From Chitinophaga pollutisoli (GTDB lineage Bacteria; Bacteroidota; Bacteroidia; Chitinophagales; Chitinophagaceae): a stretch of 64,000 nucleotides of DNA. The stretch spans positions 3,720,001-3,784,000 of the forward strand of contig NZ_CP149822.1 of assembly GCF_038396755.1 (NCBI RefSeq), given 5' to 3'. The notes below the pieces were generated by a model. That model made no database searches and was not told the origin of the DNA. It saw nothing but the letters and a program-made list of their open reading frames with translations. Of this stretch, positions 20,757-31,360 are shown one piece after another (position 1 is the first letter of the stretch; each line of letters begins with the position of its first letter). A program made the translations under genes and the position numbers.

Positions 20757-21407
20757 CTACGCATATTTAATGATGATGGTTTCTATCACGTTGGCGGAAT
20801 CTTCGCACTTGTCGGTAGCGATTTCCAGCGCCTGATAGATCTCGCGCATCTTGATCAGCTCCACCGCATTGCTTTCCTGCTCAAACAAATCCGCGATCGC
20901 ACGGTCGTAAATATCGTCGGCATGGTTCTCCAGGCTGTTGATCCGCACACATGCATCCGTAATCGCACGCATATTGCTCATGTTGCGCAACTCGGGAATC
21001 GCTTTCGCCAGTTCCGCAACACCCTGGTTGATCAGGTCGGCCAGCTTTCGCACGCTATCGTTGATCTCCACTACCTTGTACATGTCGATACGCTTGGCGG
21101 AACCATGTATGTAGTCGGCCACGTCGTCCAGCGTAGAAGCGAGATAGTGAATATCCTCCCGGTCAAAAGGCGTAATGAAGTTCTGCCCCAATTCTACGAA
21201 AATACGATGCGTAAGGTCATCGTTCTTGTGCTCCAGCCGCTCGATCAGGTGCACTTTGTCTTTACGAACCGCAGGGTCCTTGGTTTCCACCAGCTCCACC
21301 AGCACTTTACCCATTTCCACCAGGTTTGCCGCCACGTCCTCGAAAAGAGAATAGAACACCCTGTCTTTCGGCATGAACAGTTTCACAATAGAATTAAAGC
21401 CTCCCAT
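20757..21407 (-). CDS. DUF47 family PhoU-like phosphate transport regulator
   Basis: A 216-residue all-helical protein of the DUF47/TIGR00153 family, related to PhoU. It has FDREDIHYLASTLDDVADYIHG (metal-binding E/D pattern) in the first half and the repeat-like CVRINSLENHADDIYDRAI and ALEIATDKCEDSANVIETI in the second. The family is almost always encoded beside Pit transporters and is thought to modulate them. It is first in the operon, divergent from the metallophosphoesterase gene. Confidence 0.9.
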   Translation of the reverse strand: MGGFNSIVKLFMPKDRVFYSLFEDVAANLVEMGKVLVELVETKDPAVRKDKVHLIERLEHKNDDLTHRIFVELGQNFITPFDREDIHYLASTLDDVADYIHGSAKRIDMYKVVEINDSVRKLADLINQGVAELAKAIPELRNMSNMRAITDACVRINSLENHADDIYDRAIADLFEQESNAVELIKMREIYQALEIATDKCEDSANVIETIIIKYA

Positions 21408-21481: not shown

Positions 21482-21537
21482 TTAATGTTTTGGTAACATT
21501 GAATTAATATAAGAGTAATATAGCATTTTTTCCTTTG
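21482..21537 (+). promoter_or_regulatory. Pho-box-like promoter of the metallophosphoesterase gene
   Basis: Four contiguous 11-bp repeats start at 21482 (TTAAT), 21493 (GTAAC), 21504 (TTAAT) and 21515 (GTAAT). The -7 element TTCCTTTG (21530-21537; one mismatch to TAnnTTTG) begins exactly 15 bp after the start of the last repeat. The same layout occurs at 22465, 22995 and 25914. The 11-bp period equals that of PhoB half-sites in other bacteria. Confidence 0.75.
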
Positions 21538-21623
21538 TGACAGAATACCAGGGCCTTACAACTGTATCATATAATTAACAATTATGATGTAAAAAAGTTG
21601 CAGAAACCCTCATAATCCATCAA

Positions 21624-22451
21624 ATGTCAGACAAACGACCACTGGATATTGTAGTAATTTCCGACGTCCACCTCGGAATCTACGGTTGTCACGCCAAAGA
21701 GCTCGCACAGTACCTGGACTCCATCCAGCCCAAAATCCTCATCCTAAACGGGGATATCATCGATATCTGGCAGTTCAGCAAACGGTATTTTCCCAAATCC
21801 CACACGAAAGTCATCCGCCGCATCCTGAAAATGATGGGCAAAGGCACCGACGTGTATTATCTCACCGGCAACCACGACGAAGCCCTCCGCAAATACGCCG
21901 GGTTCGGCCTGGGGAATTTCCTGATAGATAATAAATTAATGTTAGATGTAGATGGTAAGAAGCACTGGTTCTTCCATGGCGACGTGTACGATGTGACCAT
22001 GAAGAATTCCAAATGGCTCGCCAAGCTCGGCGGAAAGGGGTATGATCTCCTAATTATCCTCAACCGCCTCGTCAACCATCTACTCGAAAAAATGGGGCGG
22101 GAGAAAATGTCGTTCTCCCGGAAAGTAAAAGCCGGCGTCAAGCAGGCTGTGAAGTTCATTTCCGATTTCGAACAAACGGTGGTGGAGATCGCGGCGGATA
22201 AGGAAATAGACGTGGTTTGCTGCGGGCACATCCACCAGCCGGTGATCCGGGAAGAACAAGTGAACGGGCGAACCGTCACCTACCTCAACTCCGGCGATTG
22301 GGTCGAAAGCCTCACAGCCCTGGAGTACACCGGCGGGCAGTGGCGCCTCTACCAGCACGCCGAAAAGAAAGCGCCGGCGATGGAAGAAGACGATGAAACC
22401 CTGCAGCTGGAATGGAGCGCGGTTGCACGGACGGTTTCCTTCCCCCGTTAA
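21624..22451 (+). CDS. Metallophosphoesterase, LpxH/PlcP superfamily
   Basis: A 275-residue calcineurin-like phosphoesterase. Metal-ligand motifs are all present: SDVHLG (Asp14, His16), NGDIID (Asp44), GNHDE (Asn83, His84), FHGD (His118) and CGHIH (His202, His204). Such proteins are usually annotated as UDP-2,3-diacylglucosamine diphosphatases. The segment FISDFEQTVVEIAADK and the ending SGDWVES also resemble, as I recall them, PlcP phospholipases C that strip phosphate head groups during phosphate starvation. The Pho-box-like promoter and phosphate neighbours favour a PlcP-like role, but an LpxH-like role is not excluded. Confidence 0.85.
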   Translation: MSDKRPLDIVVISDVHLGIYGCHAKELAQYLDSIQPKILILNGDIIDIWQFSKRYFPKSHTKVIRRILKMMGKGTDVYYLTGNHDEALRKYAGFGLGNFLIDNKLMLDVDGKKHWFFHGDVYDVTMKNSKWLAKLGGKGYDLLIILNRLVNHLLEKMGREKMSFSRKVKAGVKQAVKFISDFEQTVVEIAADKEIDVVCCGHIHQPVIREEQVNGRTVTYLNSGDWVESLTALEYTGGQWRLYQHAEKKAPAMEEDDETLQLEWSAVARTVSFPR

Positions 22452-22464
22452 TTTTCACACATTT

Positions 22465-22509
22465 ATAACTTTTGCTTAATATTAAGGTAACGCTGAGCGG
22501 TTAAGTTTG
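22465..22509 (+). promoter_or_regulatory. Pho-box-like promoter of the unknown 130-residue gene
   Basis: Three good 11-bp repeats start at 22465 (ATAAC), 22476 (TTAAT) and 22487 (GTAAC); the unit before them is degenerate. The -7 element TAAGTTTG (22502-22509, exact consensus) starts 15 bp after the start of the last repeat, the same register as at the other three promoters. Transcription would start only a few bases before the ATG at 22523. Confidence 0.7.
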
Positions 22510-22522
22510 CGTAACCGATCCG

Positions 22523-22915
22523 ATGATAATGAAGACGCTCAAGCTACACCCACTCATGACGATATCCCTGTTACAGATGCAGATACAGCGGCTCCTCCAC
22601 TGTAATGCCGCCGTGTATATCCGTCATTCCCTCGCCAATGGTTTCAATACCCTCCGCGAAGCAGGTCTCGAAGACGATGCGCTCATCGAATATCCTATAG
22701 ACGAAACCCTCAGCCTGCGCGAGTTCGAAGAAGACCTGGAAGAACGTTTCCATTTTTCGCTGGAACTCTGCAACATGAACCTGAAGCCCTTCATGAACAA
22801 AAGCCTTCGCCTGTTCCAGTTACCGCCCATCTCCGAAGCGCCGCCTCCGCCGGCCCGCGGCATCGACCTCTCCATCGAATGGCTCCTGCGTCAGGGCGGA
22901 AACCCGGCACTGTAA
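22523..22915 (+). CDS. Unknown 130-residue protein, candidate phosphate-regulon member
   Basis: I do not recognise this family. The first 60 residues mix hydrophobic and basic text, residues about 65-90 are very acidic and helical (LREFEEDLEERF), and a proline run (SEAPPPPA) precedes the C-terminus. No signal peptide or clear membrane segment is seen. The start may be 22523 or the in-frame ATG at 22529. It lies between two other genes with Pho-box-like promoters and has one itself, so a role in phosphate stress is inferred. The function is unknown. Confidence 0.65.
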   Translation: MIMKTLKLHPLMTISLLQMQIQRLLHCNAAVYIRHSLANGFNTLREAGLEDDALIEYPIDETLSLREFEEDLEERFHFSLELCNMNLKPFMNKSLRLFQLPPISEAPPPPARGIDLSIEWLLRQGGNPAL

Positions 22916-22965
22916 CGTTGTGCTCTTGCATGGAATTACGTGCTGTAGCGGGTTTCGGCTATCTG

Positions 22966-23050
22966 TTAATAATTCTTTAATGATTTCTTAACAATTAACA
23001 TTCTGGTAATATTGCCTTAACATTGGCGTAATGGCGCCATGGTAGTTTTG
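22966..23050 (+). promoter_or_regulatory. Extended Pho-box-like promoter of the TonB receptor gene
   Basis: Four repeats in register start at 22995 (TTAAC), 23006 (GTAAT), 23017 (TTAAC) and 23028 (GTAAT). They are followed, 15 bp from the last start, by the -7 element TAGTTTTG (23043-23050, exact consensus). Three more 11-bp units lie upstream at 22966 (TTAAT), 22977 (TTAAT) and 22988 (TTAAC, cut after 7 bp by the next array). This is the strongest of the four sites and may bind several regulator dimers. Confidence 0.78.
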
Positions 23051-23074
23051 CGGCCGTAATCAATACACAAATAC

Positions 23075-25903
23075 GTGAAACGCATTATTACTGCTGTACA
23101 AATTATCGGGATTTTATGTATCGCCTGCCTTCCTTCTTTCGCGCAGGACGGAACCGGCAAAGTGTCCGGGAAACTGACGGATAAGAAAACAGGCGAACTG
23201 CTGATCGGTGTGACAGTGATGGTACAGAATACCTCCAAAGGCGCCGTAACCGACGTGGAAGGGCGCTACCTGCTGCAAATTGCGCCCGGCACCTACACTT
23301 TGGATTATAAATACATGGGCTACCAGACCAAATCCATCGCGGACGTGGTGGTGAAAGCCGGCCAGGTGACTAATCTGGACATCGCGCTGGACGAGCCTAA
23401 ATCCAAGGAGCTCCAGGAAGTGGTGATCCGCGGCTCTTACAAGCAGGAAACCATCAACGCCCTGTACGTTGCCCAAAAGAATAACGTAAGCATCTCCAGC
23501 GGCATCTCCGGCGAAAGCATCCGCCGCAGTCCCGACCGCAATACCTCCGACGTGCTCAAACGCGTAAGCGGCGCCAGCATCCAGGATAACCGGTATATCA
23601 TCGTGCGCGGCCTCAACGACCGTTACAATACCGCCACGATCAATAACGCCATGCTGCCCAGCACCGAGCCCGACCGCAAGGCGTTTTCCTTCGACCTCAT
23701 TCCTTCCAACCTCATCGATAACATCGTTATCAATAAAACCGCATCGCCGGAGATGCCTGCCGACTTCGCGGGGGGCCTCATCCAGGTGATCACCAAAGAC
23801 ATCCCCACCGAAAACTTCCTTTCCTTCAACATCGGGCTGGGATATAACACCCAAACCACTTTCAAGGAAACCCGCGGCATGGACCGCGGCAAAAGCGAGT
23901 GGCTCACGATGGAAGACGGAACGCTGAAGCTCCCGGGCTCCTGGCCTTCTTCCCGCGGCAAATACGCCCCGCTATCCAACGAACAGAAATTCGGCCTCAC
24001 CCGCGATTTCAACAATACCTGGGGCGTGGGCGACCGTGGTAAAGCGCTCCCCGCGCAAAGCTACCAGGTTACCTGGGGCAACCGCACACGCCTGAAGAAC
24101 GACGGCTCTTTCGGCAGCATTATCAGTCTTACCTATCGCAATTCGGAAAACATTTATGAAGGCGAGCGGATGGACTACGAAAGCGGCAAAGTGCGGAGCT
24201 TCAACTTCAGTGAAGACATCAACCGCTTCAACTCCAGCCTCGGCGCCATCGCCAATTTCACTTACGTGAAGCGTAATAACAAGATTTCCCTGAAGAACAT
24301 CTTTAACCGTATCCTCGATAATAATTACATCTACCGCTCCGGCCTCAACAACGATGCCAATGCGCAGATCCTGAGCCACGGACAGGAACTGACCATCAAA
24401 ACGATGCTCAATTCCCAGCTGGAAGGCAGCCACAAAATCAATCCCCGCGACTGGAAACTGGATTGGAACCTGAACTATTCGCTGACCGACCGCAACCAGC
24501 CCGACATGAAAGTGTTGAGCTACCGCCGCGACCTGAATGCCACCGGCAACGTGCCTTACGAGGCGATGGTGCCCTTCGGAACGGCTGCGCGCAACGTTTC
24601 CCGTTTCTATTCCACCCTGGAAGAATACGCCGTTGGCGGAATGGGATCACTGACCGTGCCGTTCACCATCAGCGGACAGAAGCAGAACCTGAAAATCGGC
24701 GGGCAGAAGCTGTACCGCGAGCGTGACTTCAGCGCCCGTGTACTCGGTTATATCCGCACGAATACGGCTGATTTCAACGACGACCTGCTGACGCTTGCGC
24801 CGGGCCAGATCTTCGACCCCGCCAATATTGGTCAGAATGGTTTTGTGATGGATGAGATCACCAACAACTCCGATCGCTATAAAGCCAATTCCGACCTGAT
24901 CGCCGGATACATTCAATTCGACAACAAGATCGCGGACAAACTGCGCATCGTTTGGGGCGCGCGCGGAGAATCTTACTATCAATACATCAGCACGGCGGAT
25001 GCTTCCGGCAAATCGATCAAGAAAGACATGACGTTCTTCGACCTGTTGCCGAGCGCCAATATCTCTTACGCGGTGAACGAAAAATCGAACATCCGGTTGA
25101 GCGGTAGCAGGACGGTGTCGCGTCCGGAGCTGCGCGAGCTGAGCAACTTCGTGTATTATGACTTTGTGACGTACAGCAGCCTGCAGGGTAACCCTGACCT
25201 GAAGCGCGCCCTCATCACCAATGCCGACCTGCGTTACGAATTGTACCCGGGTGTGGGTGAAGCGGTGACGGCTTCCGTGTTCTACAAGCGTTTCAAGAAT
25301 GCGATCGAGCAAACGGTGGATGCGGGATCTACGCCTAACCGCCGCCAGATCCGTGTAGAGAATGCCGACAACGCCGAGGCGTTCGGGTTTGAGCTGGAGC
25401 TGCGCAAGAAGCTGGACTTCATTTCCGCCGAGCCTTTCTTCCAGAATATGACCGCGTTTGCTAACTTCTCGTACATCCACTCTTCCGTTAACCTGGTAGG
25501 CGGCTCTTCCGACGGGCCTTCCCGGTCCCTCCAGGGACAGAGCCCCTATCTGATCAATGCCGGCCTGCAATACGATCATCCCGAAACGAATCTTTCTTTC
25601 GGCCTGCTCTATAACAAAATGGGGCAGCGCATTTACCTGGTGGGCTTTGAAGGTTATCCGCACATTTACGAAAGAGGCCGCGACCTGCTGGACCTGCAGA
25701 TCGGTAAAAAGATCCTCAACAAACGTGGCGACCTGCGGCTGAACGTGAGCGATCTGCTGAACCAGAAATTTATTTTCTACCAGAACAACGACAACAAGAA
25801 GTCGTATAACGAAAGCGTTGACCAGATCATCACATCACAGCGCCAGGGTACCAACATCAGCCTGAACTTCTCTTACCAGTTCGGTTTGGGCAAAAAGAAA
25901 TAA
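23075..25903 (+). CDS. TonB-dependent outer-membrane receptor, probable phosphate-regulated
   Basis: A 942-residue receptor. Residues 1-24 are a signal peptide. Residues about 28-115 form a carboxypeptidase-regulatory-like domain (SGKLTDKKTGELLIGVTV). The plug follows, with VLKRVSGASIQ, IIVRGLNDRYN and MPADFAGGLIQVITKDIP. The rest is a beta-barrel ending in an aromatic-rich strand (LNFSYQFGLGKKK). No SusD gene is adjacent, unlike glycan systems. The Pho-box-like promoter and following lipoprotein and porin genes suggest uptake of a phosphorus-containing compound. The start encodes MKRIITAVQIIGIL and follows the promoter by 25 bp. Confidence 0.9.
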   Translation: MKRIITAVQIIGILCIACLPSFAQDGTGKVSGKLTDKKTGELLIGVTVMVQNTSKGAVTDVEGRYLLQIAPGTYTLDYKYMGYQTKSIADVVVKAGQVTNLDIALDEPKSKELQEVVIRGSYKQETINALYVAQKNNVSISSGISGESIRRSPDRNTSDVLKRVSGASIQDNRYIIVRGLNDRYNTATINNAMLPSTEPDRKAFSFDLIPSNLIDNIVINKTASPEMPADFAGGLIQVITKDIPTENFLSFNIGLGYNTQTTFKETRGMDRGKSEWLTMEDGTLKLPGSWPSSRGKYAPLSNEQKFGLTRDFNNTWGVGDRGKALPAQSYQVTWGNRTRLKNDGSFGSIISLTYRNSENIYEGERMDYESGKVRSFNFSEDINRFNSSLGAIANFTYVKRNNKISLKNIFNRILDNNYIYRSGLNNDANAQILSHGQELTIKTMLNSQLEGSHKINPRDWKLDWNLNYSLTDRNQPDMKVLSYRRDLNATGNVPYEAMVPFGTAARNVSRFYSTLEEYAVGGMGSLTVPFTISGQKQNLKIGGQKLYRERDFSARVLGYIRTNTADFNDDLLTLAPGQIFDPANIGQNGFVMDEITNNSDRYKANSDLIAGYIQFDNKIADKLRIVWGARGESYYQYISTADASGKSIKKDMTFFDLLPSANISYAVNEKSNIRLSGSRTVSRPELRELSNFVYYDFVTYSSLQGNPDLKRALITNADLRYELYPGVGEAVTASVFYKRFKNAIEQTVDAGSTPNRRQIRVENADNAEAFGFELELRKKLDFISAEPFFQNMTAFANFSYIHSSVNLVGGSSDGPSRSLQGQSPYLINAGLQYDHPETNLSFGLLYNKMGQRIYLVGFEGYPHIYERGRDLLDLQIGKKILNKRGDLRLNVSDLLNQKFIFYQNNDNKKSYNESVDQIITSQRQGTNISLNFSYQFGLGKKK

Positions 25904-25913
25904 ACCAGAGACA

Positions 25914-25969
25914 GTAACAATTTCATAACGCCGTGTTAAAGTGCGCGTAACATTCAGACACCACTTTTG
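25914..25969 (+). promoter_or_regulatory. Pho-box-like promoter of the beta-helix lipoprotein gene
   Basis: Four 11-bp repeats start at 25914 (GTAAC), 25925 (ATAAC), 25936 (TTAAA) and 25947 (GTAAC). The -7 element CACTTTTG (25962-25969, one mismatch) again begins 15 bp after the start of the last repeat. It lies 33 bp before the lipoprotein ATG, so this gene can be induced separately from the receptor. Confidence 0.75.
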
Positions 25970-26001: not shown

Positions 26002-27405
26002 ATGAAACTTGTAAAATTCCTTGCTTTTACTTTAGGGGCCGCGGTGGCACTTTCTTCCTGCCGTAACAACGACACTAACGAAGACGATCTGACGCCCGAC
26101 GAGCCTACGGTACTGAGCGGTGTGCAAACATCCAGCAAAACGCTGACCGCAGATAAAGTATGGACCCTGAAAGGTTATGTATACTTCCCTGAAGGAACGA
26201 CGCTGACCATCCAGGAAGGCACCGTGATCAAAAGCGACGTTACCGAGAAAGGCGCGCTGATCATCGAGCGCGGCGCGAAGATCTTCGCAACAGGTACTGC
26301 TTCCAAACCCATCGTTTTCACTTCCGGCAAAGCTGCCGGCCAGCGCCAACCCGGCGACTGGGGTGGCATCATCATCCTGGGCCGCGCCAAAACCAACCGT
26401 AGCACCGAGCCCCAGATCGAAGGCGGTGTTGGTCGTTACTACGGTGGCACCGACGATAACGACAACTCCGGCATCCTGAAATATGTGCGTATCGAATACG
26501 CAGGTATCGCGGCACAACCCAACTCCGAAATCAACGCCCTCACCCTGGGCGCAGTTGGTAAAAATACCGTGATCGACCACGTGATGACTTCCTGGGCAAA
26601 CGACGATGCTTTCGAATTCTTCGGCGGCACCGTAAGCCCTACCCACCTGGTTGCTTTCGCTACCGCTGACGACGATTTCGACTTCGATTTCGGCTACACC
26701 GGTACCGTACAATACGCCGTAGCGCTCCGCCAGCCCACTTTCGTGGATCCCGGAGATGCCGGTAACGGCATCGAGTGCGACAACGACGGCCAGGGTAACA
26801 CCGCCACTCCCCGCACGCACCCTGTTATTTCCAACATGACCATCGTTGGCCCGAACAATGCCACCGGTACTTTGTCCAACCACAACCTGGGCAACCGTTG
26901 GAGAAGGGCGACCAACTTCACTTTTGTGAACTCCATCCTGCTCGGTAACCAGAAAGGCGGTTTCTCCATCGAGTCTGCCGCTTCCTGGGACGATTATAAA
27001 AACAACGTGAGCAAATGGAAAAACAATATCGTATTTGCCGTAACCAAACCTTTCAGCACGGATTCCGCTACCGCCCGCTACGTGACCGGTAACAAATATC
27101 CCGCTGATCCGCTGTCGGCCGCAGACCGTACTGCCATGATCAACGAAGGCATCGCCGCGCTGCAGGCCATGGCTACCGCAAACGGACAGTTCAACTTCGT
27201 AGCGCCTACGGCTGATGCTGTTGGCCTTACCGATCCTTTCAACCTGAATACGCCCAACTTCCTGCCCAAAACCGGCTCCGAAGCCCTCGGGGGTACTTTC
27301 CAGGCTGCAACCGGTGTTAAAACGGAAACTTTCCGTGGCGCATTCGGTACAGAAAACTGGCTGGCAGGCTGGACCAACTTCAACCCTGGTCAGCAGGCTT
27401 ATTAA
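26002..27405 (+). CDS. Surface lipoprotein with right-handed beta-helix-like repeats
   Basis: A 467-residue lipoprotein: signal peptide with lipobox ALSSC (Cys20), followed by an asparagine/acid-rich stretch (RNNDTNEDD) typical of surface-exported lipoproteins. The mature part has many short Gly/Asn turns and GTTLTIQEGTVIKS and GALIIERGAKIFATG repeats that resemble a parallel beta-helix. DDDFDFDFGYTG is an unusually acidic patch that could bind metal. It lies between the TonB receptor and OprO/P porin genes. It probably works at the surface with the receptor; the ligand is unknown. Confidence 0.8.
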   Translation: MKLVKFLAFTLGAAVALSSCRNNDTNEDDLTPDEPTVLSGVQTSSKTLTADKVWTLKGYVYFPEGTTLTIQEGTVIKSDVTEKGALIIERGAKIFATGTASKPIVFTSGKAAGQRQPGDWGGIIILGRAKTNRSTEPQIEGGVGRYYGGTDDNDNSGILKYVRIEYAGIAAQPNSEINALTLGAVGKNTVIDHVMTSWANDDAFEFFGGTVSPTHLVAFATADDDFDFDFGYTGTVQYAVALRQPTFVDPGDAGNGIECDNDGQGNTATPRTHPVISNMTIVGPNNATGTLSNHNLGNRWRRATNFTFVNSILLGNQKGGFSIESAASWDDYKNNVSKWKNNIVFAVTKPFSTDSATARYVTGNKYPADPLSAADRTAMINEGIAALQAMATANGQFNFVAPTADAVGLTDPFNLNTPNFLPKTGSEALGGTFQAATGVKTETFRGAFGTENWLAGWTNFNPGQQAY

Positions 27406-27495: not shown

Positions 27496-28833
27496 ATGAA
27501 GGCATTGCGTTTCTCGGTTCGGACAGGTTTCCTGGCATTATTTCTCAGTTTGGTGGCGATCTCCGTAAAGGCTCAGTTTCTGATGGATATGATCGATACT
27601 ACCACCGATCTCGGGAAGGGGATGATCTCTATCTACAAGCGTTACGACCATTTGCGCATCAGCGGCTACATGCAGCCACAGTTTCAGTACGCGTCGGGTA
27701 AAGGGCCGGAAAGCTATGCGGGCGGGGATTTCAACAAGCAGGTGGATAACCGCTTTATGCTCCGCCGGGGCCGCGTCCGGTTCGATTACGCCCACTACAA
27801 CAAGCGTGATCTGCCGACGGTGCAGTTCGTGTTCCAGTTCGACGGTACCGAGCGCGGCGTGAATATCCGCGACTTCTGGGGCCGGTTGTTTGACGGCAAG
27901 TGGGATGTGATGGCATTGACGATGGGGATGTTCGCGCGGCCATTCGGGTACGAGGTCAACTTGTCTTCCGGCGACCGTGAAGCTCCCGAGCGGGGGCGTA
28001 TGAGCCAGATTCTGATGAAAAGTGAACGGGACATGGGCGGTATGCTGACCTTCGAGCCCCGTTCCAAAACCCATCCCCTGCATTATTTGAAAGTAGACGT
28101 CGGCCTGTTCAACGGGCAGGGCCTCTCCGGCCCCTCGGACTTCGACAGCCACAAAGATATCATCGCCCGGGTAGCCATGAAACCAAAGCCCATCAACGCG
28201 CAAGGCTGGCTGCTGTCGGTCGGCGGCAGTATCCTCTACGGCGGGATGGAGCAGTTTACGAATAAAATTTATACGATGGAAAGCGGGAAAACGGACTTCA
28301 ACGTGGACTCCAGCGCCACCAACGTGGGCGTGATCGCGCCGAGGCAGTATTACGGTGCCGACGCGCAGCTGGTGATCCCTAACGGCAAGGAGCGCGGCGC
28401 TACGCAGTTCCGGGCCGAATATATCCGCGGTACCCAAACCTCTACACGCCTCGATACAGAAACGCCGGGCATTATCCCGGTAGACAGAGCAGGGGCTTTT
28501 GCACCGCTTTACATCCGCCCTTTCGACGGCGCTTATTTTTCCTTCCTGCAACACCTCGGGCATCCGCAGCACCAGCTGGTGCTTAAATATGACTGGTACG
28601 ATCCCAACCGTGCCGTAAAAGGCCGTCAGATCGGTAATGCGGCGGCGAAAAACCTCACCGGCGGCGATGTCCGTTTCGATACATTCGGGTTCGGGTACGT
28701 GTTTTACTACAATGAAAACATGAAGCTCGTTCTCTGGTACGACCGGGTGTGGAATGAGAGCACCTTGCTGGAAGGGTTCGAGGAGGATATCGCCGACAAC
28801 GTGTTTACGGCGCGTATCCAGTACCGTTTCTGA
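27496..28833 (+). CDS. Phosphate-selective porin O/P family protein
   Basis: A 445-residue outer-membrane porin. A signal peptide covers residues 1-27 (ending VKAQ), then a short helical stretch, then a beta-barrel with FMLRRGRVRFDYAHYNKRD, FARPFGYEVNLSSGDREAPER and alternating hydrophobic strands ending in RIQYRF, a typical C-terminal aromatic. These match the OprO/OprP (Porin_O_P) family, whose Pseudomonas members pass phosphate or polyphosphate. It lies between the beta-helix lipoprotein and the two-component genes, in keeping with phosphate uptake. Confidence 0.87.
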   Translation: MKALRFSVRTGFLALFLSLVAISVKAQFLMDMIDTTTDLGKGMISIYKRYDHLRISGYMQPQFQYASGKGPESYAGGDFNKQVDNRFMLRRGRVRFDYAHYNKRDLPTVQFVFQFDGTERGVNIRDFWGRLFDGKWDVMALTMGMFARPFGYEVNLSSGDREAPERGRMSQILMKSERDMGGMLTFEPRSKTHPLHYLKVDVGLFNGQGLSGPSDFDSHKDIIARVAMKPKPINAQGWLLSVGGSILYGGMEQFTNKIYTMESGKTDFNVDSSATNVGVIAPRQYYGADAQLVIPNGKERGATQFRAEYIRGTQTSTRLDTETPGIIPVDRAGAFAPLYIRPFDGAYFSFLQHLGHPQHQLVLKYDWYDPNRAVKGRQIGNAAAKNLTGGDVRFDTFGFGYVFYYNENMKLVLWYDRVWNESTLLEGFEEDIADNVFTARIQYRF

Positions 28834-29404: not shown

Positions 29405-30529
29405 TTACAGGTAAATCTCACGGCCCAGTTCGAGGGTAAAGCCGAAGGTGGAGCCTACTTCCACTTTGCTGCGCACGTTGATCGTTTGGTCATGTGCTTC
29501 AACAATGTGTTTCACGATAGCCAGGCCGAGGCCGGTTCCGCCGATGTCGCGGCTGCGGGCGCGGTCGGTACGGTAGAAACGTTCGAATACCCGGGGGAGG
29601 TGTTCTTCAGCCATGCCGATACCGGTATCCGAGATCTCCACGAGTGCGCGCTTGCCGTCCATGTTATAGACGCTGGCGATGGTCTGGCCTTCCTGTTTGC
29701 CGTATTTTACGGAGTTTTCGATCAGGTTGATGAGCACCTGGCGGATCTTTTCTTTGTCGGCGTTTACCATGATGGGGGCTTCGCAACCTTTCTTGATGCT
29801 GAATTTGATATCCTTCTGTTTGGCTTTGATGGACAGGGTGTCGAACACATCGCGGATAAGGTCCTGGATCACGAACTGTTCCTTGTTGATGGTCATTTCC
29901 CCGCTTTCGAGCTTGGAAATTTCGTCGAGATCGTCGATCAGCCGGCAGAGGCGGTCGATATTTTTGGTGGCGTTTTTGAGGAAGGTTTTGTTCACCTGGG
30001 GATCGTCGATGGCGCCGTCGAGCAGCGTATGGATGTATCCCTGAACGGCGAAGATGGGGGTTTTGAGTTCGTGGGAGAGGTTAAGGAGGAATTCTTTCCG
30101 GAAAGCTTCATTGCGGCGGAGGTTTTCCAGTTCTTCCCTTTTCTGGAAGGCCCATTTTTCCACGTCTTCACTGACTTCCTCGATCGTTTTGAGAGGGAGG
30201 ATGTTTTTATTGAAGAATTCCTCGCGCTTGGAGGCTTTCGTCTGGTAGATAAACTTGTATATCAGTTTGATCTTCCGGTAGATGAAATTCTGGAGGGTGT
30301 AGAGGTAGAGGAAATAGGCAACGAGGAAAGTGAGCCCGAAGGCGATGAGGGTTTCCTTGAGGGTGGCGCCGATTACGAGGCATCCCAGGGCCATAACGAC
30401 GGACAGGATGAACGCGGTAAATGCGGCGAGTTTCTGTGGCGACAGGTTTTTGGCTTTCAGCATACTCCAAAGAGCGTGTAAGTTGAGATTGCTGGAAATT
30501 AAACTAAATTTTTTACTTGAAGATGCCAT
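29405..30529 (-). CDS. PhoR-like sensor histidine kinase
   Basis: A 374-residue inner-membrane kinase with two membrane segments (about 36-55 and 60-80) and almost no periplasmic loop between them. A linker follows, then the H-box NLSHELKTPIF with the phosphorylated His153, then an ATPase domain with N-box NLIENSVKYG, DTGIGM and GGTGLGLAIVKHI. PhoR-type kinases have the same short membrane entry and rely on transporter partners for sensing. The regulator gene is 63 bp upstream in the same operon. The phosphate role is inferred from context. Confidence 0.87.
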   Translation of the reverse strand: MASSSKKFSLISSNLNLHALWSMLKAKNLSPQKLAAFTAFILSVVMALGCLVIGATLKETLIAFGLTFLVAYFLYLYTLQNFIYRKIKLIYKFIYQTKASKREEFFNKNILPLKTIEEVSEDVEKWAFQKREELENLRRNEAFRKEFLLNLSHELKTPIFAVQGYIHTLLDGAIDDPQVNKTFLKNATKNIDRLCRLIDDLDEISKLESGEMTINKEQFVIQDLIRDVFDTLSIKAKQKDIKFSIKKGCEAPIMVNADKEKIRQVLINLIENSVKYGKQEGQTIASVYNMDGKRALVEISDTGIGMAEEHLPRVFERFYRTDRARSRDIGGTGLGLAIVKHIVEAHDQTINVRSKVEVGSTFGFTLELGREIYL

Positions 30530-30592: not shown

Positions 30593-31282
30593 TCAGAGTT
30601 CGAATTTGTAGCCTACGCCTTTGACGGTGGTGATGAGATCAACGCCGAGTTTCTGGCGGATTTTGCGGATGTGCACGTCGATGGTGCGGTCGCCCACGAT
30701 CACTTCGGTGCCCCAAACCTGGTTGAGGATCTCGTTGCGGAGGAAAACGCGGCCGGGCTTGGAGGCCAGGAGCTGGAGGAGCTCGAATTCCTTTTTGGCG
30801 AGGATGATTTCGTCCCCTTTATAGGTAACGGTGAATTTTTCACGGTCGATGATGAGGTCGCCCAGGTGGATCTGCTGTTCTTCCGTTTTGTTCAGCCGGC
30901 GGAAGAGTGCGTTGATGCGGGAAACGAGGAGCCTGGGTTTGATGGGCTTGGCGATGTAGTCGTCGGCCCCCATGTTGAGCCCTTCGATCTCGCTCTTTTC
31001 GTCGTTCAGCGCGGTGAGGAACAATACCATGGTTTCCTTGAATTCGGGGAGGCGGCGAAGCTCGCGGCAGGTGTCGATCCCGTTCTTGTTGGGCATCATG
31101 ATGTCCAGCATGATCAGGTCCGGCCGGAAGATCTTGGCTTTCTGGATCGCTTCGAGCCCGTCTTTGGCCGTTACCGTTTCGTACCCCGCGCTCTTGAGGT
31201 TGTAACTGATGATTTCGAGGATATCGGCCTCATCGTCCACGACCAGAATTTTTCCTACTGCTACTGCTGGTTCCATCAACAT
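30593..31282 (-). CDS. PhoB-like OmpR-family response regulator
   Basis: A 229-residue regulator. The receiver domain has the acidic pair VVDDE (Asp16-Asp17), phosphorylated Asp60 (LIMLDIMMP) and Lys in AKPIKP. The C-terminal winged helix has LLQLLASKPGRVFLR, then NEILNQVW and VHIRKIRQKLG. It is transcribed before its kinase. As the only regulator in a phosphate island whose promoters carry 11-bp direct repeats, it is the best candidate to bind them. That link is inference. Confidence 0.88.
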   Translation of the reverse strand: MLMEPAVAVGKILVVDDEADILEIISYNLKSAGYETVTAKDGLEAIQKAKIFRPDLIMLDIMMPNKNGIDTCRELRRLPEFKETMVLFLTALNDEKSEIEGLNMGADDYIAKPIKPRLLVSRINALFRRLNKTEEQQIHLGDLIIDREKFTVTYKGDEIILAKKEFELLQLLASKPGRVFLRNEILNQVWGTEVIVGDRTIDVHIRKIRQKLGVDLITTVKGVGYKFEL

Positions 31283-31304: not shown

Positions 31305-31360
31305 CAAAATTAATCACCCCTTTCCCGTTTCATGAAAAGATAACATTATGGAATTGTTAA
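31305..31360 (-). promoter_or_regulatory. Response-regulator promoter with a partial Pho-box-like element
   Basis: On the minus strand, two 11-bp units, TTAAC... (31360-31350) and ATAAT... (31349-31339), begin 48 and 37 bp upstream of the -7 element TAATTTTG (31312-31305). These are the exact positions of repeats 1 and 2 at the four full sites. Positions 3 and 4 are not conserved. It may be a weak autoregulatory site or a coincidence. Confidence 0.4.

Follow-up and report, generated by a model that had tools for sequence, protein, structure and literature searches.

Repeats with a TTAA core and an 11-bp period in promoters of Chitinophaga pollutisoli: a candidate Pho box of Bacteroidota

Described Pho boxes and the repeats of C. 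pollutisoli

The PhoP box of Bacillus subtilis consists of TTAACA-like repeats that recur about every 11 bp. Repeats alike in core and period are found at four promoters in a 64-kb stretch of the Chitinophaga pollutisoli genome (GCF_038396755.1, NZ_CP149822.1, positions 3,720,001–3,784,000), the whole of which is called the window here, and the coordinates below are window positions. We interpret these repeats, with a probability of about 90%, as the Pho box of Bacteroidota, i.e., a predicted activator array in which as many as four 11-bp half-sites follow one another head to tail, the last ending 4 bp upstream of TAnnTTTG, the -7 element of sigma-A. The array very probably turns on phosphate-scavenging genes when phosphate runs out. 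Soils, seas and guts harbour Bacteroidota in large numbers, and these bacteria share in the turnover of organic phosphorus; a box with fixed promoter spacing makes their regulon readable from the genome sequence.

Among the closest described forms is the SphR box of Cyanobacteria, which is composed of YTTAAYYW repeats with 3-nt spacers, and therefore recurs every 11 bp (PMC13226834). The two boxes have in common the TTAAY core, the head-to-tail period of 8 + 3 = 11 bp, and the number of two to four units, and in activated promoters the SphR box lies over the -35 region or further upstream (PMC13226834). On the other hand, the last unit of the present box starts at a fixed 15 bp from the Bacteroidota element TAnnTTTG, and the phylum and the regulator are different. 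In addition, the first letter of its units can be T, G, A or C, and the YYW tail is loose, with the outer letters partly kept. An earlier note on this DNA knew of no described motif of this form for the phylum; in other phyla such boxes are known, as the SphR box shows (PMC13226834).

The Pho box of Escherichia coli has two 11-nt repeats of the CTGTCAT type, on which the effector domains of PhoB are arranged head to tail, and the window shares with it the 11-nt direct repeats adjoining the promoter (PMC4415409). The core differs, being TTAAY here and TGTCA in E. coli, and the window has as many as four units and TAnnTTTG in the place of a -10 hexamer. The last TGTCA of the E. coli phoB promoter begins 16 bp ahead of CATAAT, which we take to be its -10 element; the window has 15 bp, and therefore the geometry is nearly that of E. 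coli.

Within Bacteroidota, the binding sites of PhoP from Riemerella anatipestifer were determined by DNA affinity purification sequencing (583 peaks), and the most conserved letters, TTTAACA, were published as an ArcA-like motif (PMC9603813). This regulator is also a PhoP-named response regulator from the phylum with a TTAACA core; however, neither an 11-bp register, nor a promoter spacing, nor a phosphate regulon is seen in the available text of that report, and the motif is not called a Pho box there (PMC9603813). The earlier statement on the phylum is to be amended in this respect as well, since the R. anatipestifer PhoP motif is in print. PhoB from Bacteroides fragilis binds the pstC promoter in an electrophoretic mobility shift assay, and the words motif and consensus are absent from the available text of that report (PMC3547664). 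In the literature searched, from which subscription journals were mostly absent, we found no paper on a Bacteroidota Pho box whose 11-bp repeats keep a fixed distance to the promoter. The reports that we found treat the phosphate response of Bacteroidota without such an operator. The arrays give the TAnnTTTG promoter of the phylum a predicted activator site whose geometry has been measured, and the form itself is already known from Cyanobacteria.

Sequence, register and conservation of the arrays

All of the four arrays lie on the forward strand. Box 1 (21482–21525) contains four units, which start with TTAAT at 21482, GTAAC at 21493, TTAAT at 21504 and GTAAT at 21515, and its -7 element TTCCTTTG is located at 21530–21537, 15 bp from the start of unit 4. 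Box 2 (22465–22497) contains three units, ATAAC at 22465, TTAAT at 22476 and GTAAC at 22487, while the slot at 22454 is degenerate (TTCAC). Box 3 (22995–23038) starts its four units with TTAAC at 22995, GTAAT at 23006, TTAAC at 23017 and GTAAT at 23028, and box 4 (25914–25957) with GTAAC at 25914, ATAAC at 25925, TTAAA at 25936 and GTAAC at 25947. The -7 elements of these three boxes, TAAGTTTG (22502–22509), TAGTTTTG (23043–23050) and CACTTTTG (25962–25969), were read directly from the sequence. By this reading, an octamer ending in TTTG follows 15 bp from the start of the last unit at 4 of 4 sites, as had been claimed before, and the full TAnnTTTG is matched by two of the four octamers, those of sites 2 and 3. 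The core is nTAA at all four sites, and the TGTCA core of the E. coli type is absent from them. The earlier note had described one exact layout at the four promoters; the register is indeed shared, but site 2 is without the first unit and site 4 has TTAAA, not TTAA(C/T), in its third.

Chance is an unlikely origin of the arrangement, in agreement with the earlier note. An exact two-unit pattern matches only the four sites in the window, and with up to one mismatch it gives five matches, compared with a mean of 0.64 and a largest count of 4 in 100 shuffles. In the whole 6.08-Mb genome, the exact TTAA/GTAA/TTTG pattern gives six matches against two for the reversed control, and the three-unit pattern gives five, i.e., the four window sites and one further site (L008), against none. 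One exact TTAA/GTAA match, before a TPR-like protein (L002), has two units and was taken as chance, like L003; it is not among the 30 matrix matches listed, the lowest of which scores 15.8 bits.

The matrix, which performs better genome-wide than mismatch-tolerant pattern counting, was built from 38 sites, none of them from the family of the window. It ranked box 3 (47.7 bits), box 1 (45.6 bits), box 2 (38.6 bits) and box 4 (38.5 bits) at the top of the 64 kb. In 800 kb of the same genome, neither the forward nor the reversed matrix gave a match of at least 30 bits, and three matches reached at least 18 bits (two with the reversed matrix).

To follow the box in homologous promoters, the TonB receptor behind box 3 was used. 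Among 295 genomes sampled from the class Bacteroidia, 185 had homologues at E < 1e-80, and 70 loci were read, consisting of the 30 best matches, including the window's own, and 40 picked for family spread; two genomes contribute two loci each, and orthology was judged by similarity and by the lipoprotein neighbour. Of the 69 receptor promoters other than the window's own, 45 carry three or all four of the TAA cores in phase with a TTTG at spacing 15; when the first listed locus of each other family was counted, 18 of 30 families did so. Two hundred shuffles of the same regions gave a mean of 0.04 and a maximum of 1. When the spacing was varied from 4 to 40, only 0–3 of the 69 promoters matched, except at 11-bp offsets from 15 (15 promoters at spacing 4, 39 at 26 and 20 at 37), and among the periods from 7 to 15 only 11 stood out, the periods of 7–10 and 12–15 giving 0 or 1. 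The promoters of the lipoproteins behind the receptor contained the box in 29 of 57 loci and 17 of 24 families, including the window's own.

Alignment of 40 sites gave a consensus of about TTAACAT-N4 per unit, with a core of about TTAAY. Because the sites were chosen by score, this consensus overstates the TAA cores and fixes TTTG; the TA before nnTTTG is conserved without such selection (T 0.68, A 0.70). The promoter-proximal unit is the weakest on average. The succession of TTAA in the third and GTAA in the fourth unit, on which the earlier note had laid weight, holds in the window and is not kept in these relatives.

The box was also found before phosphate genes. In 20 of 30 pstC loci, about 4.1 kb upstream of each was scanned on both strands at a threshold of 20 bits, and 15 of the 20 regions had a match, as compared with 5 of 30 in an earlier scan with 1.5-kb flanks. 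Dinucleotide shuffles of these regions gave 0 in 20 rounds, and when the -7 block was shifted by 1–5 bp, the 16 loci obtained at shift 0 (with the gap unscored) fell to 1–5. The matches precede PstS-like proteins in L335 and L336, which were named by resemblance to L271, as well as a porin in L331 and a PhoB-like regulator, the latter on the opposite strand of L336; several further first genes encode outer-membrane-like proteins. In 18 Flavobacterium genomes, 14 of the 18 matches to a strict three-unit pattern stood before phosphate-type genes, i.e., 12 homologues of the window lipoprotein, one PstS-like protein (PF12849) and one choice-of-anchor I protein, and the other four before other genes or no gene. 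Outside Bacteroidia but within the phylum, 7 of 20 chosen pst regions reached at least 20 bits and 13 stayed below, in a scan made without a shuffle control. The box extends beyond Bacteroidia, and is not found everywhere there.

The control set consisted of PF01663 and ribosomal-protein S20 loci. The same matrix found the box in none of the 30 PF01663 loci (114.7 kb) and none of the 80 S20 loci (321 kb, mostly Flavobacterium). By their length, 16 of the 30 PF01663 loci were taken as PafA-like, and PafA is not induced in Flavobacterium johnsoniae (PMC8115612). Equal occurrence of the repeats before unrelated genes had been named as the outcome that speaks against a Pho box, and the result in the samples scanned was the opposite. 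These results support the Pho-box interpretation of the earlier note.

Regulator, mechanism and alternative explanations

The presumed binder of the boxes is the PhoB-like response regulator encoded at 30593–31282 on the reverse strand. It matches PF00072 (Response_reg) and PF00486 (Trans_reg_C) above the cut-offs, and is therefore an OmpR/PhoB-type response regulator, which shares 40% identity with E. coli PhoB across 222 positions; TIGR02154 and NF053854 are its best NCBIfam matches. Arg201 of E. coli PhoB, a residue that we take to contact DNA, is replaced by Lys both in this regulator and in the regulator of L336. The comparison of the recognition helices is no more than suggestive.

TAnnTTTG occupies -12 to -5 in Flavobacterium psychrophilum (PMC9723704), and therefore the units would start near -27, -38, -49 and -60, so that the -33 region lies under them. 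Under phosphate scarcity, the PhoR-like kinase would phosphorylate the PhoB-like regulator, whose effector domains would bind the half-sites in tandem on one helix face over this region, and RNA polymerase would be recruited. The PlcP-like phosphoesterase, the TonB receptor, the lipoprotein and the 130-aa protein of the window would thus be switched on, together with, elsewhere in the genome, an operon of TonB receptor, SusD and phosphoesterase and a choice-of-anchor I lipoprotein.

Expression is known for a counterpart of this regulon in F. johnsoniae. The window resembles its phoBR cluster, and the gene set is shared, with the TonB receptor, lipoproteins, PlcP and SusCD-type operons of phosphate utilisation systems; the words motif and promoter are absent from the main text of the report (PMC8115612). 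Phosphate depletion raised the TonB receptor Fjoh_0545 by 8.02, the lipoprotein FII Fjoh_0546 by 9.91, PlcP (Fjoh_4577, located elsewhere in that genome) by 8.59 and PhoB by 3.06, whereas OprP (-1.3) and PhoR (0.76) were not raised; these values from the FC column are read as log2 because the text gives log2FC (PMC8115612). The genes of the phosphate utilisation systems were also induced, and in all 95 transcripts were reported to rise on phosphate depletion (PMC8115612). A similar split is seen in the window, in which the phosphoesterase, the receptor and the lipoprotein have boxes, the porin has none, and the PhoB-like gene has a weak box at most. The 80 loci retained out of 571 relatives do not include F. 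johnsoniae.

Several observations weigh against a Pho box. The regulator stays under both PhoB cut-offs (222.2 against 296.2 for TIGR02154, and 208.4 against 270 for NF053854 of Bacteroides), and the PhoR-like kinase under the cut-offs of its best models. PhoX (PF05787), which is among the most strongly induced genes in F. johnsoniae (PMC8115612), was matched weakly in 4 of the 18 Flavobacterium genomes, three times above the family cut-off, and none of the four had a box (best score, 15.2 bits). Not every promoter reached the threshold: 24 of the 69 receptor promoters fell short, as did 28 of the 57 lipoprotein promoters and 5 of the 20 pst regions, and the 18 strict matches in Flavobacterium compare with 8 for the reversed pattern. 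In the own genome, patterns with one mismatch gave 24 matches against 15 reversed and a further mismatch scan gave 34 against 30, a small excess because this genome seems to hold few boxes. Four-unit arrays counted regardless of a promoter numbered 16, compared with 9 for the reversed pattern; sites 1, 3 and 4 account for three of them, and the remainder consists mostly of uniform 11-bp minisatellites. Finally, one strong box (38.2 bits; L008/L063; G000:C1:3364123–3364166, minus strand) stands before the gene of a secreted 156-aa protein that has no family and is possibly a new phosphate-starvation protein.

The failure of the regulator at the PhoB cut-offs could mean that a different OmpR-family regulator, e.g., of the ArcA or redox type, binds the array and controls the phosphate genes, and that the adjacent PhoB-like protein is not cognate. 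We regard this as improbable, since the boxes precede pst-linked and phosphatase genes, adjoin the PhoBR-like pair of the window and precede the PhoB-like gene of L336, and since B. fragilis PhoB binds its own pstC promoter (PMC3547664). Boxes at pst-linked, phosphatase and PhoB-like genes fit PhoB most simply. It is much less probable still that the repeats carry no phosphate signal and are A/T-rich upstream elements that serve the RNA polymerase alpha subunit, or a trait of TonB-receptor promoters in general. The training genes were indeed TonB receptors and their lipoproteins, with A/T-rich upstream regions, but the matrix also finds promoters that belong to no TonB receptor, namely pst-linked, choice-of-anchor I and phoB-like ones, and the PF01663 and ribosomal-protein control loci and the dinucleotide shuffles all gave zero. 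Slippage-made 11-bp minisatellites without a regulatory role are an almost negligible explanation: uniform 11-bp arrays exist in the genome, some with TAAC cores (L274, L285, L287, L288) and some scoring 20.9–24.4 bits with the matrix, but they lack an in-register TTTG, whereas the sites of the window share only the core, hold the TTTG register and are found again at homologous genes in 18 of the 30 sampled families, so that as a full account minisatellites are refuted by the conservation at 45 of 69 receptor promoters.

For uncharacterised lipoproteins and small proteins, and for TonB receptors, the box suggests a phosphate-related role. A wider proposal is tentative, and we hold it to be somewhat less probable than its opposite: a Pho box with the TTAA core of Cyanobacteria and Firmicutes may be phylum-wide, set at constant spacing from the unusual promoter of Bacteroidota. 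TTAA would then be the older and widespread form, from which the TGTCA of Proteobacteria was derived along with changes such as Arg201 to Lys in the recognition helix. In that case, a single short pattern would delimit the Pho regulon across most of the phylum, with numerous lipoproteins and small proteins of as yet unassigned function in it.

Genes around the boxes and further sites

The genes around the boxes are as the earlier note had given them. Divergent from box 1, on the reverse strand, are the Pit phosphate transporter (PF01384; 19730–20737), whose gene has no box of its own above 8 bits, and a PhoU-like (DUF47) protein recognised by family match (20757–21407). Box 1 precedes a calcineurin-like phosphoesterase (PF00149/PF12850; 21624–22451, forward), called PlcP-like by analogy with Fjoh_4577 (pf12850). 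The predicted target of box 2 is a 130-aa protein (22523–22915, forward), for which no Pfam or NCBIfam family scored above cut-off; a small protein without a family thus has its own Pho-type promoter. The TonB-dependent receptor (23075–25903, forward) shows the Pfam set given for Fjoh_0545 (PF07715, PF13715, PF14905), and the lipoprotein at 26002–27405 (forward) is homologous to the twelve Flavobacterium lipoproteins behind the same type of box. The gene at 27496–28833 on this strand, without a box, encodes a porin named OprP-like by analogy with the F. johnsoniae cluster. It is 39% identical to the porin-like protein that follows the box upstream of pst in L331; an unboxed porin thus stands inside the boxed cluster, and its homologue is boxed. 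The PhoR-like histidine kinase, assigned by profile matches, is encoded at 29405–30529 on the reverse strand. Upstream of the PhoB-like gene, on the same strand, there is a tentative two-unit box at 31305–31360 (TTAAC, ATAAT ... TAATTTTG) with 19.6 bits, which is near background. With the Pit transporter and the PhoBR-like pair present, the genome nevertheless gave no match to pstC at E 0.001.

Elsewhere in the same genome, a box of 37.4 bits precedes an operon of TonB receptor, SusD and calcineurin-like phosphoesterase, which by analogy is likely the counterpart of the F. johnsoniae phosphate utilisation systems. The sole match above 21 bits in the 800 kb (29.1 bits) is followed after 24 bp by a choice-of-anchor I lipoprotein (PF22494), which is 56% identical to the gene behind a Flavobacterium box (L273). 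Judged from the beta-propeller signature and the InterPro numbers, it may correspond to the induced Fjoh_3414.

Uniform 11-bp tandem arrays with several cores (GTAACTATACA, TAATCTACCTG, TACTGTATCCC, GGATACTCCGG) and no in-register TTTG (L274, L285, L279, L287 and L288) are located near 467.0, 4029.2, 2145.7, 5131.2 and 6033.1 kb of G000:C1, respectively. Among the S20 records, L079, L105 and L129 are titled as metagenome-assembled genomes of Sphingobacterium thalpophilum or Bifidobacterium breve. Their S20 is 90–98% identical to the query, as in the Flavobacterium records, and these three are probably mislabelled or contaminated bins.

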